This document shows positions 27,618 to 32,644 of a DNA stretch of 36,337 nt, one piece after another. Where the stretch lies: assembly GCA_017615355.1 (NCBI GenBank), contig JAGAAJ010000075.1:1-36337 (forward strand), read 5' to 3'. How positions within the stretch are numbered: the stretch's first letter is position 1; each line of letters opens with the position of its first letter. Below the pieces are notes generated by a model that saw only the letters and a program-made list of their open reading frames with translations, was not told the origin of the DNA and did no database searches. Origin of the DNA: Prevotella sp. Its GTDB lineage: Bacteria; Bacteroidota; Bacteroidia; Bacteroidales; Bacteroidaceae. Position numbers and translations under genes: made by a program.

Positions 27618-29468
27618 ATGAAGAGAATAATCTATGTATGTATGATGGTTGCAGGCTTGTTGCTTGCAATGCCGGCAAAGGCATGGAAGGGCACGTCGCC
27701 CAACGGCATGCTGACAATGGAAGTGAACAACGGGCACCTGAAGCTGTTCTACGCAGCCAGGCAGGTGATGGACATCGTCATCGACCAGCGGGCAACGATG
27801 CCAAGACAGGTGGCAGCACGACGCCTCAGCGAGGAGTACCAGATGCTGACGGGCAAGCGCCTGCATTGCACCAACGAGGGCAATGAATACCGCGTGGGCG
27901 GCATGGTTCTCCGCCTCTATAATGACGGCCTTGCGTTTAGGTACGAAAACCAAAACGAAAACGGAAAAGAGCCCACGGCCTACATCATTCCTGAAGGCAC
28001 GAAGCGCTGGATGCAACAATGGAGCGACGGCTACGAGGGTTTCTTCCCCATGTCGACCACTGCCAACGTGAAGACCCTGGGCGGCTTTGGAGGTTCGATC
28101 ACACAAAATGAAAACAACACCCATTGGGGATATCCGCTGCTGGTGGAGCCCGGGAAACAAAACGAAAACCAAAACGAAAACGAAAACGTTTTTGCGCTGA
28201 TTACCGAGGCCAACATCGAGCAGGGACAGAGCGCCTCATCTTTATTCAATGAGGGTGAGACCTTCCGTGTAGTGCCCGACAAGCGCGACGAGCAGGGCAA
28301 GCCCTGGCCTGGCCACACCCCCTGGCGTGTGGTCATCGTGGGCACGCTGGCCGAGGTGGTGCAGTCGACGCTGGTGACCGATGTCAGCGAGCCCTCGAAG
28401 ATTGCCGACACCAGTTGGATCAAGCCGGGCGTCGTGTCATGGGTCTACTGGGCCTACAATCACGGCTCCAACGACTTCAACATCATCAAGAAATATGTGG
28501 ACATGGCCGTTGCCCTGGGCCTGCCCTACGTGCTCATCGATGCCGAGTGGGACGAGATGGACAAGGTGGCCTCCAACGAGGGCAAGACCATCGAGGATGC
28601 TGTGGCCTATGCCAATGCCAAGGGTGTGAAGCCACTCATCTGGTACAACTCGTCAATAGGCTGGATCAACGGCGCCCCTGGCCCGAAGTTCCGTCTGAAC
28701 AAGCCCGAGGATCGTGAGAAGGAATTCGCCTGGTGCGAGAAGATAGGCGTAGCCGGCGTGAAGATCGACTTCTTCAGCGGCGACACACAGCAGAACATGG
28801 ACTACTGCATCGACCTCCTCGAGAGTGCTGCCCGTCACCACCTGCTGGTCAACTTCCACGGCGCCCCTATCCCTCGCGGATGGCAGCGCACATGGCCGAA
28901 CCTTATGTCGACGGAGGGCGTCTATGGCGCTGAGTGGTACAACAATGTGCCTCACTTCACCAAGAAGGCGGCTGCACACAATGCCACCCTGCCCTTCACC
29001 CGCAACGTCATCGGCCCGATGGACTATACGCCCTGTGCCTTCAGCGACTCGCAGCATCCGCACATCACCAGCCACGCCCATGAGCTGGCGCTGACGGTGC
29101 TCTTCGAGAGCGGTCTGCAGCATCTGGCCGACCGTCCCGAGAGCTTCCTCGCACAGCCGGCAATGGTGCAGTATTTTCTCGGCCATCTGCCCAGCGTGTG
29201 GGATGAGACGCGTCTCGTCAGCGGCAATCCTGCCGACCACGCCGTCATCGCCCGTCGCTCAGGTGCCACCTGGTATGTGGCAGGCATCAACGGCACCGAT
29301 GCTGAGAAGACCGTCGCCCTCAACCTCAACTTTATTCAGGGCAAGCGCATCACCAGCTTCGCCGACAGCGGCAACGCCGACAATCCCTGGACCATCACGC
29401 AGCCCGGTGCCCTGCCTGCATCGGTCAAGATGCAGCCTCGTGGCGGCTTCGTCCTCGTCATTCGCTAA
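27618..29468 (+). CDS. GH97 glycosidase, probably of the retaining alpha-galactosidase type
   Basis: A 616-residue exported protein (signal IIYVCMMVAGLLLAMPAKA). It has the N-terminal super-sandwich domain (SPNGMLTMEVNNG, LRLYNDGLAFRYE), a TIM barrel (SWVYWAYNHGSNDFNIIKKY, YVLIDAEWDEM, LIWYNSS) and a C-terminal beta domain. At the barrel position where inverting GH97 (SusB) has no acidic residue, this protein has Asp384 in GVKIDFFSGD, as in retaining GH97 alpha-galactosidases. Glu433 in STEGVYGAEW is the likely acid/base. I infer alpha-galactosidase or a related alpha-glycosidase acting on xylan or other hemicellulose side chains. The protein has three Asn/Glu/Gln-rich loop insertions (residues 110-115, 163-166, 181-190). 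The downstream repeat family begins 6 bases after its stop. Confidence 0.88.
   Translation: MKRIIYVCMMVAGLLLAMPAKAWKGTSPNGMLTMEVNNGHLKLFYAARQVMDIVIDQRATMPRQVAARRLSEEYQMLTGKRLHCTNEGNEYRVGGMVLRLYNDGLAFRYENQNENGKEPTAYIIPEGTKRWMQQWSDGYEGFFPMSTTANVKTLGGFGGSITQNENNTHWGYPLLVEPGKQNENQNENENVFALITEANIEQGQSASSLFNEGETFRVVPDKRDEQGKPWPGHTPWRVVIVGTLAEVVQSTLVTDVSEPSKIADTSWIKPGVVSWVYWAYNHGSNDFNIIKKYVDMAVALGLPYVLIDAEWDEMDKVASNEGKTIEDAVAYANAKGVKPLIWYNSSIGWINGAPGPKFRLNKPEDREKEFAWCEKIGVAGVKIDFFSGDTQQNMDYCIDLLESAARHHLLVNFHGAPIPRGWQRTWPNLMSTEGVYGAEWYNNVPHFTKKAAAHNATLPFTRNVIGPMDYTPCAFSDSQHPHITSHAHELALTVLFESGLQHLADRPESFLAQPAMVQYFLGHLPSVWDETRLVSGNPADHAVIARRSGATWYVAGINGTDAEKTVALNLNFIQGKRITSFADSGNADNPWTITQPGALPASVKMQPRGGFVLVIR
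27945..28187 (+). repeat. Simple AAC/GAA-type hexamer repeats in the GH97 gene
   Basis: Runs of AAC, GAA and CAA codons occur at 27945-27962, 28104-28118 and 28158-28187, encoding ENQNEN, QNENN and QNENQNENEN. They fall in loops of the N-terminal domain and differ from the GC-rich codon use around them, as if added by slippage or insertion. Confidence 0.6.
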
Positions 29469-29473
29469 GATTG

Positions 29474-29528
29474 TCTACGGACTAAAATGACAAAAAGGAC
29501 AGTCCAAAAAGTCCCAAGAGTCCGTAGA
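29474..29528 (+). repeat. Palindromic repeat, copy 0 (upstream of GxxExxY gene)
   Basis: Arms TCTACGGACT (29474-29483) and AGTCCGTAGA (29519-29528) are perfectly inverted. Between them GGAC and GTCC words separated by A-rich tracts would pair as two more short stems with A-rich internal loops. It lies right after the GH97 stop and 28 bases before the GxxExxY start. Confidence 0.9.
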
Positions 29529-29556
29529 AAGAATAACTAACAAGCCATAGAAAAGA

Positions 29557-29943
29557 ATGGATAGAAGTTACACTTACAGAATACTCCGCTGTGCCTACAA
29601 CGTATACGATGAACTAGGGCCAGGTCTGTTGGAAAGTATCTACGAAGAAGCTCTCTGCCGCGAACTGCAGGCCAACGGATTCTCTGTGGAGCGTCAGAAA
29701 CCTATACCGGTCACCTACAAGGGGGAACCTTTGACCAATGACCTACGCCTTGATATCATCGTTGACAACAAGGTGATACTTGAGCTGAAATCCGTCACTG
29801 AGTACCGCAAGCTCTTTGAGAAACAGTTGTATACCTACTTGCGCCTCACCGGCTGCGAACTCGGCTATGTCATCAACTTCAACGAGGAGGACCTTGCCGA
29901 TGGTATCCACACTATAGTCAACCGTTTCAGTTCCAAGGAATAG
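29557..29943 (+). CDS. GxxExxY protein, PD-(D/E)xK-like
   Basis: A 128-residue protein with the family signature GLLESIY (Gly23, Glu26, Tyr29). A possible nuclease core follows: Asp66 in LRLDIIVDN and Glu76-Leu-Lys78 in VILELKSV, then a Tyr/Leu-rich helix (QLYTYLRLTG) and YVINFNEE. These are the features of the PDDEXK_3 (GxxExxY) family, widespread and often multicopy in Bacteroidetes, with a predicted PD-(D/E)xK nuclease fold and no known function. All candidate active-site residues are present, so it is probably intact. It has no signal peptide and is the only cytoplasmic protein in this cluster. It is flanked on both sides by copies of a palindromic repeat, unlike the surrounding glycosidase genes, which suggests the gene and repeats entered or spread together. 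Confidence 0.85.
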   Translation: MDRSYTYRILRCAYNVYDELGPGLLESIYEEALCRELQANGFSVERQKPIPVTYKGEPLTNDLRLDIIVDNKVILELKSVTEYRKLFEKQLYTYLRLTGCELGYVINFNEEDLADGIHTIVNRFSSKE

Positions 29944-29966
29944 TTCTATTTCTAGGGGGAAATAAG

Positions 29967-30215
29967 TCTACGGACTAAAAGGACAAAAAGTCAGTCCAAA
30001 AAGTCCATCAAGTCCGTAGAACAATATAAACCTACGGACTAAAAGGACAAAAAGGACAGTCCAAAAAGTCCCAAGAGTCCGTTGAATAATATAAGTCTAC
30101 GGACTAAAAGGACAAAAAGGACAATCCAAAAAGTCCCAAGAGTCCGTAGAATAATATAAGTCTACGGACTAAAATGACAAAAAGATCAGTCCATCAAGTC
30201 CAAAGAGTCCGTAGA
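29967..30215 (+). repeat. Tandem array of four 55-bp palindromic repeats
   Basis: Copies are at 29967-30020, 30031-30085, 30096-30150 and 30161-30215, with a period of 64-65 bp. The spacers are 10 bases of an ATAATATAAG type. Each unit has the 10-bp arms TCTACGGACT and AGTCCGTAGA around A-rich tracts with GGAC and GTCC words. All copies have the A-rich strand on top. In copies 1 and 4 the internal words have decayed while the arms are exact. Copy 2 has one change in each arm. This fills most of the 361-base gap between the GxxExxY and GH3 genes. Confidence 0.93.
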
Positions 30216-30304
30216 ATAAAACAGTCAAAGACAAATAAAGTCCGTAGAGCAAACAGGACAATCCATCCAAAGACAACAAGTATAATCATTTAGCCAAAGA
30301 CACT
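30216..30304 (+). repeat. Degenerate end of the repeat array
   Basis: After copy 4 the sequence keeps the same words in broken order, including one full arm AGTCCGTAGA at 30239-30248 and GGACAATCCATCC. It then runs into the GH3 start without a clear promoter. Confidence 0.6.
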
Positions 30305-32644
30305 ATGAAAAAAATTCTTCTGATTATGACAGCAACTGCAATGGCCGCTGCAGCCCAAGCCCAGCAGGCCCCTCAACTCACCGCCGACAACATCGACGAA
30401 GTGATGAAAGCCATGACCCTTGAGGAGAAGGCAAAGCTACTGGTTGGCGGTGCCAACAACTTCTTCGGCAGCACAGCCGTTGTAGGCGGCGAGGCCGACC
30501 TCGTGGCCGGAGCTGCCGGCACGTCGCCCGCCATTCCCCGTCTGGGCATCCCTGCCACCGTGCTCACCGACGGCCCTGCCGGCGTGCGCATCGACCCCAC
30601 CCGCAAGGGCACGGACAAGACCTACTACGCCACCGCCTTCCCCATCGGCTCCTGTCTGGCCTCTACGTGGAACACCGAGCTGGTAAGCCAGGTGGGACAG
30701 GCCATCGGCAATGAGACGAAGGAATACCGCTGCGACGTCATCCTCGGCCCAGGCATGAATCTGCACCGCAACCCGCTCTGCGGCCGCAACTTCGAGTATT
30801 ATTCCGAAGACCCGCTGCTCACGGGAAAGATTGCCGCCGCCTATATCCAGGGCGTACAGAAAGAGGGTGTCGGCGTCAGCGCCAAGCACTTCGCCGTGAA
30901 CTCTCAGGAGACCGACCGCACCAGCGTCGACGAGCGTGTCAGCCAGCGTGCTGCCCGCGAAATCTACCTCCGCGGCTTCGAGATAGCCGTCCGTGAGAGC
31001 CAGCCCTGGACTATCATGGCATCCTACAACCAGGTCAACGGCCAGTATTCGATGGGCAACCACGACCTGCTGACAAAGATCCTGCGCGACGACTGGGGCT
31101 TCAAAGGCATCGTGATGACCGACTGGATTGGCATCCGCAACGGTCTGACCACCATCAGCGAGGTACATGCCGGCAACGACCTGATGGAGCCGGGACAGCC
31201 CAAGCAGGTGGAGGAGATCATCGCCGGTGTGAAGAACGGCAAGCTCGACATCGCCGATGTCGACCGCAATGTGCGCCGTATGTTGGAGTACATCGTGAAG
31301 ACACCCAGCTTCCGCCACTATCCCGCCAGCAACAATCCCGACTTCAAGGCCCATGCCGCCATCACCCGCCAGAGTGCCTGCGAGGGCATCGTCCTGCTGA
31401 AGAACAACGGCGTCCTGCCTTTCAACGTCAAGACCGTCGCCCTCTTCGGCGAGAACTCCTACGACTTCCTCTCCGGCGGCACAGGCTCCGGCTGCGTGCA
31501 TCCGCCCTACGTCGTCGACATGCTGCAGGGCCTGAAGAACGCAGGCATCAGCTCGTCGCCTACCCTGACCGACATCTATCGTAAGTACATCGACTATGCC
31601 AAGGTGAAGTTCCAGGCCGAGCGCCATCCAGCCAAATGGTTCCAGACCGAGATGATGGGCCAGCAGAAATATCCCGAGATTTCGCTCTCGCCCATCGCCG
31701 TCAACAAGGAAGTGCAGGCAGCCGACGCCGCCATCATCACCATCGGCCGTCAGGCAGGTGAAGGCATCGACCGCGACATCGACACCGAGTTCAACCTCAT
31801 TCCCGAGGAGCGTGCCCTCATCATGGACGTCTGCAACGCCTTCCATGCAGTTGGCAAGCCCGTCATCGTCATCATCAACTCCGGCAGCGTCATCGAGACA
31901 GCCTCATGGAGTGGCTATCCCGACGCCATCCTCTGCGCCTGGCAGCCAGGCATGGAGGGCGGCAACAGCATCGCCGACATCCTGACGGGCAAGGTGAATC
32001 CCTCAGGCCGTCTGACCATGACATGGCCCCTCGCTGCCACCGACCATCCCTCCACGAAGAACTTCCCTGGCAATATCGATACCTATACCTTCGAAGCCAT
32101 GATGGGCAACAAGATGCCTATTCCAGGTCATGACTACACCAACCATGAGGAAGACATCTACGTGGGCTACCGCTACTTCGACACCTTCGGTCGTAATGTG
32201 GCCTATCCCTTCGGCTATGGCCTGAGCTACACCACCTTCGCCTACGAGAAGCCGAAGGTAACTGTGCAGGGCGATCTCGTTACTCTGGAAGTGACGGTGA
32301 AGAACACGGGCAGCGTCAGCGGCAAGGAGGTGGCACAGGTCTATGTCAGCGCCCCTGCCGGCCAGCTGGAGAAGCCCGCGAAAGAGCTGAAGGCCTTTGC
32401 CAAGACGCGCGAGCTGCAGCCCGGCGAGAGCCAGCGCCTCGTGATGAAGATACAGAAGCGTGAGCTCGCCTCATTCGACGAAGGCGGCTCACAGTGGCTG
32501 GTGGAGGCCGGCACCTACAACTTCCTCATCGGCGCCAATGTAGAGGACATCCGCTGTCAGGCCTCAGCCCGTCTGACGGAGTACAAAGAGTCAGTCAGCA
32601 ACGCCCTCGCTCCGCAGGTGAAGCTCAATCTTCTGAAACAATAA
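30305..32644 (+). CDS. GH3 beta-glucosidase-like glycosidase
   Basis: A 779-residue exported protein (signal KKILLIMTATAMAAAAQA). The GH3 N-domain has LTDGPAGVRI, GPGMNLHRNPLCGRNFEYYSED and SAKHFAVNSQETDR, with nucleophile Asp273 in IVMTDWIG. The C-domain (VALFGENSYDFLSGGTGSGCV; TIGRQAGEGIDRD) holds the likely acid/base region near the GEGIDRD loop. A fibronectin-III-like domain ends the protein (EVTVKNTGSVSGKEVAQVYV). The MTDW and QETDR blocks place it in the beta-glucosidase branch, distinct from the PA14-bearing xylosidase-like GH3 earlier in the cluster. It would release terminal glucose or xylose from oligosaccharides. Its upstream region is the repeat array, and a strong terminator follows 13 bases after the stop. 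It may be cotranscribed with the upstream genes or separately expressed. Confidence 0.9.
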   Translation: MKKILLIMTATAMAAAAQAQQAPQLTADNIDEVMKAMTLEEKAKLLVGGANNFFGSTAVVGGEADLVAGAAGTSPAIPRLGIPATVLTDGPAGVRIDPTRKGTDKTYYATAFPIGSCLASTWNTELVSQVGQAIGNETKEYRCDVILGPGMNLHRNPLCGRNFEYYSEDPLLTGKIAAAYIQGVQKEGVGVSAKHFAVNSQETDRTSVDERVSQRAAREIYLRGFEIAVRESQPWTIMASYNQVNGQYSMGNHDLLTKILRDDWGFKGIVMTDWIGIRNGLTTISEVHAGNDLMEPGQPKQVEEIIAGVKNGKLDIADVDRNVRRMLEYIVKTPSFRHYPASNNPDFKAHAAITRQSACEGIVLLKNNGVLPFNVKTVALFGENSYDFLSGGTGSGCVHPPYVVDMLQGLKNAGISSSPTLTDIYRKYIDYAKVKFQAERHPAKWFQTEMMGQQKYPEISLSPIAVNKEVQAADAAIITIGRQAGEGIDRDIDTEFNLIPEERALIMDVCNAFHAVGKPVIVIINSGSVIETASWSGYPDAILCAWQPGMEGGNSIADILTGKVNPSGRLTMTWPLAATDHPSTKNFPGNIDTYTFEAMMGNKMPIPGHDYTNHEEDIYVGYRYFDTFGRNVAYPFGYGLSYTTFAYEKPKVTVQGDLVTLEVTVKNTGSVSGKEVAQVYVSAPAGQLEKPAKELKAFAKTRELQPGESQRLVMKIQKRELASFDEGGSQWLVEAGTYNFLIGANVEDIRCQASARLTEYKESVSNALAPQVKLNLLKQ

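Follow-up and report, generated by a model that had tools for sequence, protein, structure and literature searches.

What kind of element places a ladder-like palindrome before a small GxxExxY gene and four more in tandem after it, and does it exist beyond the locus where it was noticed? We addressed this question in a window of 36,337 nt (the whole stretch of Prevotella DNA that was analysed), where an insertion of 836 nt (29469..30304) fills the gap between a GH97 gene (27618-29468) and a GH3 gene (30305-32644). The GxxExxY gene within it (29557..29943) encodes 128 aa, and the insertion, its repeats and the three genes all lie on the + strand. The repeats are five palindromes of 54-55 bp made of 9-nt GGAC/GTCC units. 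The upstream copy (29474..29528, 55 bp) starts 5 nt past the GH97 stop codon. The four tandem copies occupy 29967..30020 (54 bp, one base short inside), 30031..30085 (one change per outer arm), 30096..30150 (the most stable fold, MFE -22.9 kcal/mol) and 30161..30215 (decayed rungs, exact arms), and are followed by a degenerate tail (about 30216..30304) with a further AGTCCGTAGA end and GGACAATCC core. With the arm's first base taken as the start, they follow one another at 64, 65 and 65 nt, and Tandem Repeats Finder gives a period of 65, 4.0 copies, 89% matches and a score of 397. Positions and program thus agree with the arrangement described in the initial annotation: one copy before the gene, four after it and a tail.

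Each palindrome consists of three 9-nt units followed by three inverted ones, i.e. GGACTAAAA-GGACAAAAA-GGAC-A-GTCC-AAAAAGTCC-CAAGAGTCC, with TCTAC and GTAGA at its ends. The outer arms had been described as exact around a decaying interior. The 10-bp arms are indeed exact in four of the five copies, and it is the 30031 copy that departs from the description, with a single change in each arm (CCTACGGACT / AGTCCGTTGA). The decay of the interior in tandem copies 1 and 4 is real: the former lacks a base and the latter has broken rungs, as has, to a lesser degree, the 29474 copy. RNA folding of the + strand supports the proposed hairpin ladder. The five copies fold with MFE from -16.4 to -22.9 kcal/mol (z from -4.4 to -7.1), no shuffled sequence matches the native stability, and the outer stem is present in all five folds and the innermost rung in three only. 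The two copies tried as single-stranded DNA also fold.

An Rfam scan of the window returned no family at threshold and no rRNA match, and a promoter/terminator scan detected no terminator. Promoter-like sites number 6 against a mean of 1.2 in shuffled sequences, and five of the 6 fall in the array, on its minus strand. A CRISPR reading was rejected, as it had been from the start, on the near-identical spacers and the regular 65-bp period; no cas gene occurs among the six window proteins scanned.

The protein encoded between the repeats matches TIGR04256 (139.3 bits, cut-off 35) and PF13366 (135.5 bits, cut-off 22) and belongs to the PD-(D/E)XK family. Nucleases of this family have a conserved D and an E-x-K motif at the usual spacing. 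The window protein has these residues, and D66, E76 and K78 are invariant in 26 of 26 and in 41 of 41 aligned GxxExxY sequences, which in both alignments came from profile or pattern searches. The alignments show an intact PD-(D/E)XK site, with which these proteins may cut. The match to the sequence of T7 endonuclease I is weak (E 0.49). The ORF of the elements is under purifying selection, with differences of 0.204, 0.088 and 0.565 at the three codon positions (510 non-independent pairs whose flanks show no homology). The name GxxExxY appears in PMC12085832 and PF13366 in PMC9756366. GxxExxY genes occur in at least 95 of 150 genomes of the same genus, and genes for the four-helix-bundle protein S23, which we found in similar surroundings (see below), in at least 131 of the 150. 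Among the matches listed, two equal-score GxxExxY genes lie about 500 nt apart on one contig (L030 and L078, G086:C68), which looks like a tandem duplication. At three other loci (L019, L021, L032) the upstream ladder reads as the N-terminus of the GxxExxY ORF (MEHEETK..., MEHRDTET...), and the ladder unit may be coding there.

How far does the ladder of the window extend? In its own genome the arm pattern matches at 4 forward places, against 0 for a reversed-pattern control, and the exact arms are confined to the window locus. Across 398 genomes of the genus, CTACGGACT-N20-45-AGTCCGTAG is present in 12, the window's own included, and the reversed control matches in one (G013). Most copies in other genomes keep GGACT rungs near a 9-nt period and have variable spacers. 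The search for the arms in the host and its relatives, proposed in the initial annotation, therefore gave a divided answer: the ladder recurs, but at the 11 other loci (one per genome) neither a GxxExxY nor an S23 gene was found in the flanks read. Because of this, the literal link between the window arm and a GxxExxY gene is true of the window but not a general rule. All 11 genomes nevertheless have GxxExxY genes somewhere (against a background of at least 95 in 150). In these genomes, 22 of the 27 readable GxxExxY matches have complementary arms of their own at a score of at least 14, a count that has no null set and takes in two pieces of one broken gene. Among the GxxExxY genes of these genomes, L288 (in G415) is enclosed by a GGACT hairpin of its own. 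The apparently broken gene is in G484 (L309 and L312, C103:7371-7624), where it is matched in two adjacent pieces and has arms of its own that differ from those of the window; the gene-less GGACT ladder of this genome (C103:9825) is on the same contig at a distance of about 2.2 kb, which places the gene outside the flank read.

What recurs with the gene is the layout: about three units of some 9 nt per arm, inverted, around or beside the gene. The other two of the three GxxExxY genes in the window's genome have a CGCAGAG ladder (L006) and long palindromes (L007), and inspection by eye of 32 loci of the genus revealed flanking repeats at most of them, often with the gene inside the hairpin. To quantify this we used an arm score, i.e. 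the best complementarity between the 300 nt before and the 300 nt after the gene. A score of 17 is reached by 39 of 65 GxxExxY loci of the genus (1 of 191 mismatched pairings), by 8 of 30 phylum-wide GxxExxY loci (0 of 86) and by 12 of 28 S23 loci (3 of 83), the loci being mostly the best-scoring family members and not a random draw; 26 of the 65 and 22 of the 30 GxxExxY loci fall below it. Among control ORFs from 400 kb of a genome of the genus, 6 of 254 reach the score, and three of these are themselves GxxExxY or S23 genes. The association of a structured repeat with GxxExxY genes, suspected from the window, is thus upheld by flanking ladders at many loci. The 10-bp arms do not hold up as a general recognition feature: relatives replace arms and rungs in concert by other sequences and keep the layout.

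These sets were obtained as follows. The GxxExxY loci of the genus went from 85 hits to 69 with flanks long enough and 65 after a stricter cut, the S23 loci from 31 hits to 30 and then 28, and the control ORFs from 284 to 254 (252 in the mismatched-pair comparison); all 30 phylum-wide loci were kept. A further, named set (80 loci, 66 after leaving out 3 short ones and 11 duplicates) reached the score at 40 of 66 loci, but also in 34 of 195 mismatched pairs because its arms share one motif, and we rejected it as a test of specificity. We also gave up a self-palindrome score of the whole region: ordinary ORFs do well on it too, with 121 of 252 at 16 or more, which made it unfair.

Searches with tblastn found eight GxxExxY loci on plasmids. 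Those of Sphingomonas (between fabD and fabG), Bacteroides finegoldii and Bernardetia have clear inverted arms, with scores from 18 to 22.5, and that of Treponema has an 11-nt match. The loci of Gemmatirosa, Fusobacteria, Prevotella nigrescens and Persicobacter score 10.5 or less, and three of these four have same-orientation repeats by eye. Outside the Bacteroidota, the layout was seen in the Pseudomonadota, at one locus.

Ladder and protein diverge together. The arm units have a period of 9 nt in GxxExxY elements and of 8 nt in S23 elements, and the ladder sequence differs between GxxExxY elements. At sites without homologous flanks, arm and protein divergence are correlated (Mantel r 0.34, n=128, and 0.58, n=18), with 0 of 2000 permutations as high in either test. 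In the 16 S23 elements of the frdA-frdB gap, unit types broadly follow S23 groups: protein identity is 56-87% within a unit type and 41-60% between types, and the ranges overlap. The three nearest relatives found for the window protein (L287, L291 and L109, at 71%, 68% and 62% identity) also lie in arrays, in tandem and with the ends TCTA...TAGA. Rungs no more than 32 nt from these ends number GGAC 8/GTCC 12 (1 other) in the window, GGAG 26/CTCC 14 (6 other) in L287, GGAG 12/CTCC 19 (4 other) in L291 and GGAT 20/ATCC 6 (0 other) in L109. This series consists of three chosen relatives, since the next ones, at 60-61% identity, have other ladders (ACGGAG units in L096, CGCAGAG units in L040) or none detected by score (L217). 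Concerted change of the rungs would be expected if one protein reads them all; it is also expected if arms are regenerated from one unit. We discarded a within-versus-between comparison of arms (770/968 pairs) as biased, because only loci with matching arms had entered it.

Operon gaps that hold 451-836 nt at some loci measure 46 nt or less in relatives. At L245, the orthologues of the GH97 and GH3 genes (88% and 91% identity) are 25 nt apart, against 836 nt in the window; this was the sole other locus with a close GH3 adjacent among the 30 GH97 loci fetched (window included). Between frdA and frdB, an S23 element of 451-586 nt is present at 10 of 30 loci, and the remaining ones have gaps of 1-46 nt (19 loci) or 112 nt (one). 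The clearest pair is L355, with an empty gap of 1 nt, and L356, with a filled one of 511 nt, whose flanks are 95.1% identical over 1802 bp on one side and 93.0% over 852 bp on the other. The insert of L356 consists of a ladder, the S23 ORF and the inverted ladder, and no clear target-site duplication of the MITE or DNA-transposon kind emerges from the pair, as the alignments overlap by 2 nt at the junction, where the end sequence also belongs to the arm. Between scpA and scpB, 28 loci were informative: one holds a filled gap, of 631 nt, whereas the gap measures -8 to 20 nt at 25 loci and 58 and 99 nt at the last two; two uninformative loci (L326, L335) are outside this count, and five further filled loci came from the GxxExxY search itself. 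More broadly, 510 of 611 pairs with at least 75% protein identity have flanks without homology.

Gene-less palindromes with cognate arms occur as well. In a 400-kb sample of genome G045, one 27-nt arm is found exactly at 5 places. Two of these are the arms of a GxxExxY element, two more are those of an element without a gene about 0.9 Mb off, and there is one further place; reversed-unit controls gave 0. The count for CGGACT (4 places) was left out, as it coincides with the CACGGAT places. From these comparisons of sequences, the view that the palindrome elements move is well supported.

We propose, with a probability of roughly 0.68, that the window repeats are one local family of mobile palindromes with two components, similar in design to RAYT/REPIN systems and built on unrelated proteins. 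One component would be a short palindrome, each arm of which is a ladder that repeats a unit of 8-10 nt about three times. The other would be a small gene in the loop of the palindrome or between its copies, encoding either a GxxExxY nuclease-family protein (9-nt units) or the S23 four-helix-bundle protein (8-nt units). The protein would bind the repeated rungs of its own ladder, and the rungs would therefore change together. Protein and host replication or repair enzymes would then copy or move the hairpin, in cis with the gene or in trans as gene-less copies, of which the four tandem copies of the window would be a local amplification. For GxxExxY, the likeliest step would be the cutting of an extruded hairpin or cruciform by the PD-(D/E)XK site. 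The S23 version has no such enzyme and would need a partner. That this unrelated protein shares the chassis is an argument that the enzyme behind the movement does not have to come from the ORF. Both the level of transfer, DNA or RNA, and the chemistry of the enzyme are things we infer. The DNA route is placed first only narrowly because of the orientation of the elements, while sense G-U mismatches are not in excess.

The orientation is the main reason to consider an RNA-level alternative, in which hairpin and ORF would form an element of the intervening sequence (IVS) type within operon mRNA, be excised by RNase III and spread through RNA or cDNA with a reverse transcriptase encoded elsewhere. 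In codirectional gaps, GxxExxY elements are oriented with the operon in 98 cases against 13 (150 examined, 28 mixed, 11 unclear) and S23 elements in 18 against 2 (24 examined, 4 mixed). Such a bias speaks either for an RNA route or for selection for expression, and a strand-blind DNA transposon would not predict it without selection. The window ladders fold well as RNA, and passages of the literature provide precedents: S23 is the protein encoded by some IVS elements of 23S rRNA, insertions with complementary sequences at their borders (PMC4990558), and the protein Avd of diversity-generating retroelements (DGR) is reported to be homologous to S23 (PMC10053308). On the other hand, the bias could reflect selection for expression or against antisense structure. 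In a G-U test for a sense RNA hairpin, arm mismatches show no sense-strand G-U excess, with A-C 62 vs G-U 35 for GxxExxY, 30 vs 11 for S23 and 23 vs 23 phylum-wide. We set this test aside, because a result opposite to expectation is confounded by the A-rich top strands. On balance the RNA-level route seems unlikely, if well short of negligible.

The two remaining explanations are both highly improbable. The ladder could be the antitoxin RNA of a regulatory pair, type III toxin-antitoxin-like or other, with the nuclease as its partner, and in the window, as in L287, L291 and L109, tandem structured repeats do have a small gene of a nuclease family next to them. In type III toxin-antitoxin systems the repeat array is upstream of the toxin gene and its RNA is cut by the toxin; in the window, four of the five copies are downstream of the gene. 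Against such a pair, many loci are bracketed by a single arm pair with no array (by eye), gene-less copies are found far from any gene copy, and S23 is not a nuclease family. The array could also have arisen in an ordinary way, by local tandem duplication of a palindrome that resembles a REP or a terminator, and belong to no system. Its exact 10-bp arms at one locus of the genome and the gene-less copies of the 11 other genomes are what such an accident would leave, but at the level of the family it is contradicted by gene-flanking ladders that recur relative to controls, by the co-divergence of ladder and protein and by insertion polymorphism.

The open-access PMC papers searched yielded no description of the mobile palindrome that we favour; the initial annotation, too, knew of no named element with this layout. 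The closest parallel is RAYT/REPIN, for which PMC2817692 describes inverted palindromes on either side of a small gene, further copies scattered through the genome without a gene, and co-evolution of repeat and protein. Here, the gene lies between inverted palindromes, not at every locus (26 of 65 GxxExxY loci are below 17), and cognate gene-less repeats are dispersed in the G045 sample, whereas in the window's own genome the exact arms were found at this locus only. RAYTs are HUH-type tyrosine transposases related to IS200/IS605, whereas the proteins here are of the PD-(D/E)XK family (PF13366/TIGR04256) or S23 (TIGR02436). REPs have tagged heads, GT(A/G)G, and the present arms, unlike those of RAYT/REP, are ladders of about 9- or 8-nt units. 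Because the protein family differs, we place the ladder elements outside RAYT/REPIN.

The 23S rRNA IVS elements likewise have an S23 ORF within an insertion that forms a stem and is part of a transcribed unit; they are sporadic and thought to spread horizontally (PMC4990558, in part). The present elements are inserted between protein genes instead of in rRNA, have arms of iterated units, also exist as gene-less copies and may carry GxxExxY in place of S23. The BrickBuilt MITE of Porphyromonas gingivalis is likewise intergenic in a member of the Bacteroidota, with tandem repeats and small inverted ends; it has 23-nt units and a limited host range, and its abstract mentions no gene, GGAC ladder or GxxExxY (PMC4596501). 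The TAACTGA repeats of Beggiatoaceae, Cyanobacteria and some Bacteroidetes are short-period, intergenic and often near start codons, but consist of one fixed heptamer in direct repeats, according to portions of PMC4679880, in whose main text 'palindrom' and 'S23' have 0 occurrences.

More tentatively, and with slightly less than even confidence, we suggest that these elements form an unnamed superfamily of two-component mobile palindromes whose range takes in the Bacteroidota and one or more further phyla (Pseudomonadota, one locus). Each would have a private recognition code, written in some six rungs that change in concert and are read by the protein of that element; two unrelated proteins, a PD-(D/E)XK nuclease and S23 (reported kin of Avd), would serve one chassis, and the 23S rRNA IVS would be one branch. 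GxxExxY and S23 are common uncharacterised families, and both would gain a testable role as partners of mobile ladder palindromes. If this is true, the 23S rRNA IVS elements gain relatives outside rRNA, and 146 protein/repeat pairs with arms become available for the study of joint change in a protein and an iterated recognition unit. In compact operons the insertions come between neighbouring genes (frdA-frdB, scpA-scpB, GH97-GH3, fabD-fabG) and may therefore alter operon expression.

Several loci show further features. In the flanks of seven GxxExxY genes (L015, L027, L029, L035, L079, L174, L219), ladder arms surround a segment of about 110-160 nt that to the eye resembles a cloverleaf, its long outer stem closing off some three hairpins; several of these loci have two such segments, to the left and right of the gene. 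This segment may represent a third kind of cargo, similar to an RNA; 0 of 12 loci, among them L015, L027, L029 and L035, have an Rfam match. Between complementary ladder-like arms (score 23), L118 (1185-1860) has an ORF of 224 aa outside the GxxExxY and S23 families, possibly another cargo. Extra single units lie outside the main palindrome at L119 (10060-10860), L165, L170, L171, L181 and L207, often with one directly past the upstream stop codon and another directly before the next start codon (CACACGGA... / ...TCAGTGTGAAATATG). Finally, 3' of two GH97 relatives (L258, L261), other ladder-like repeats (AAGAGTGAAGAGTGAAG, ATTAAGAATTAAGAG) start a few nt past the GH97 stop codon, the site used in the window.
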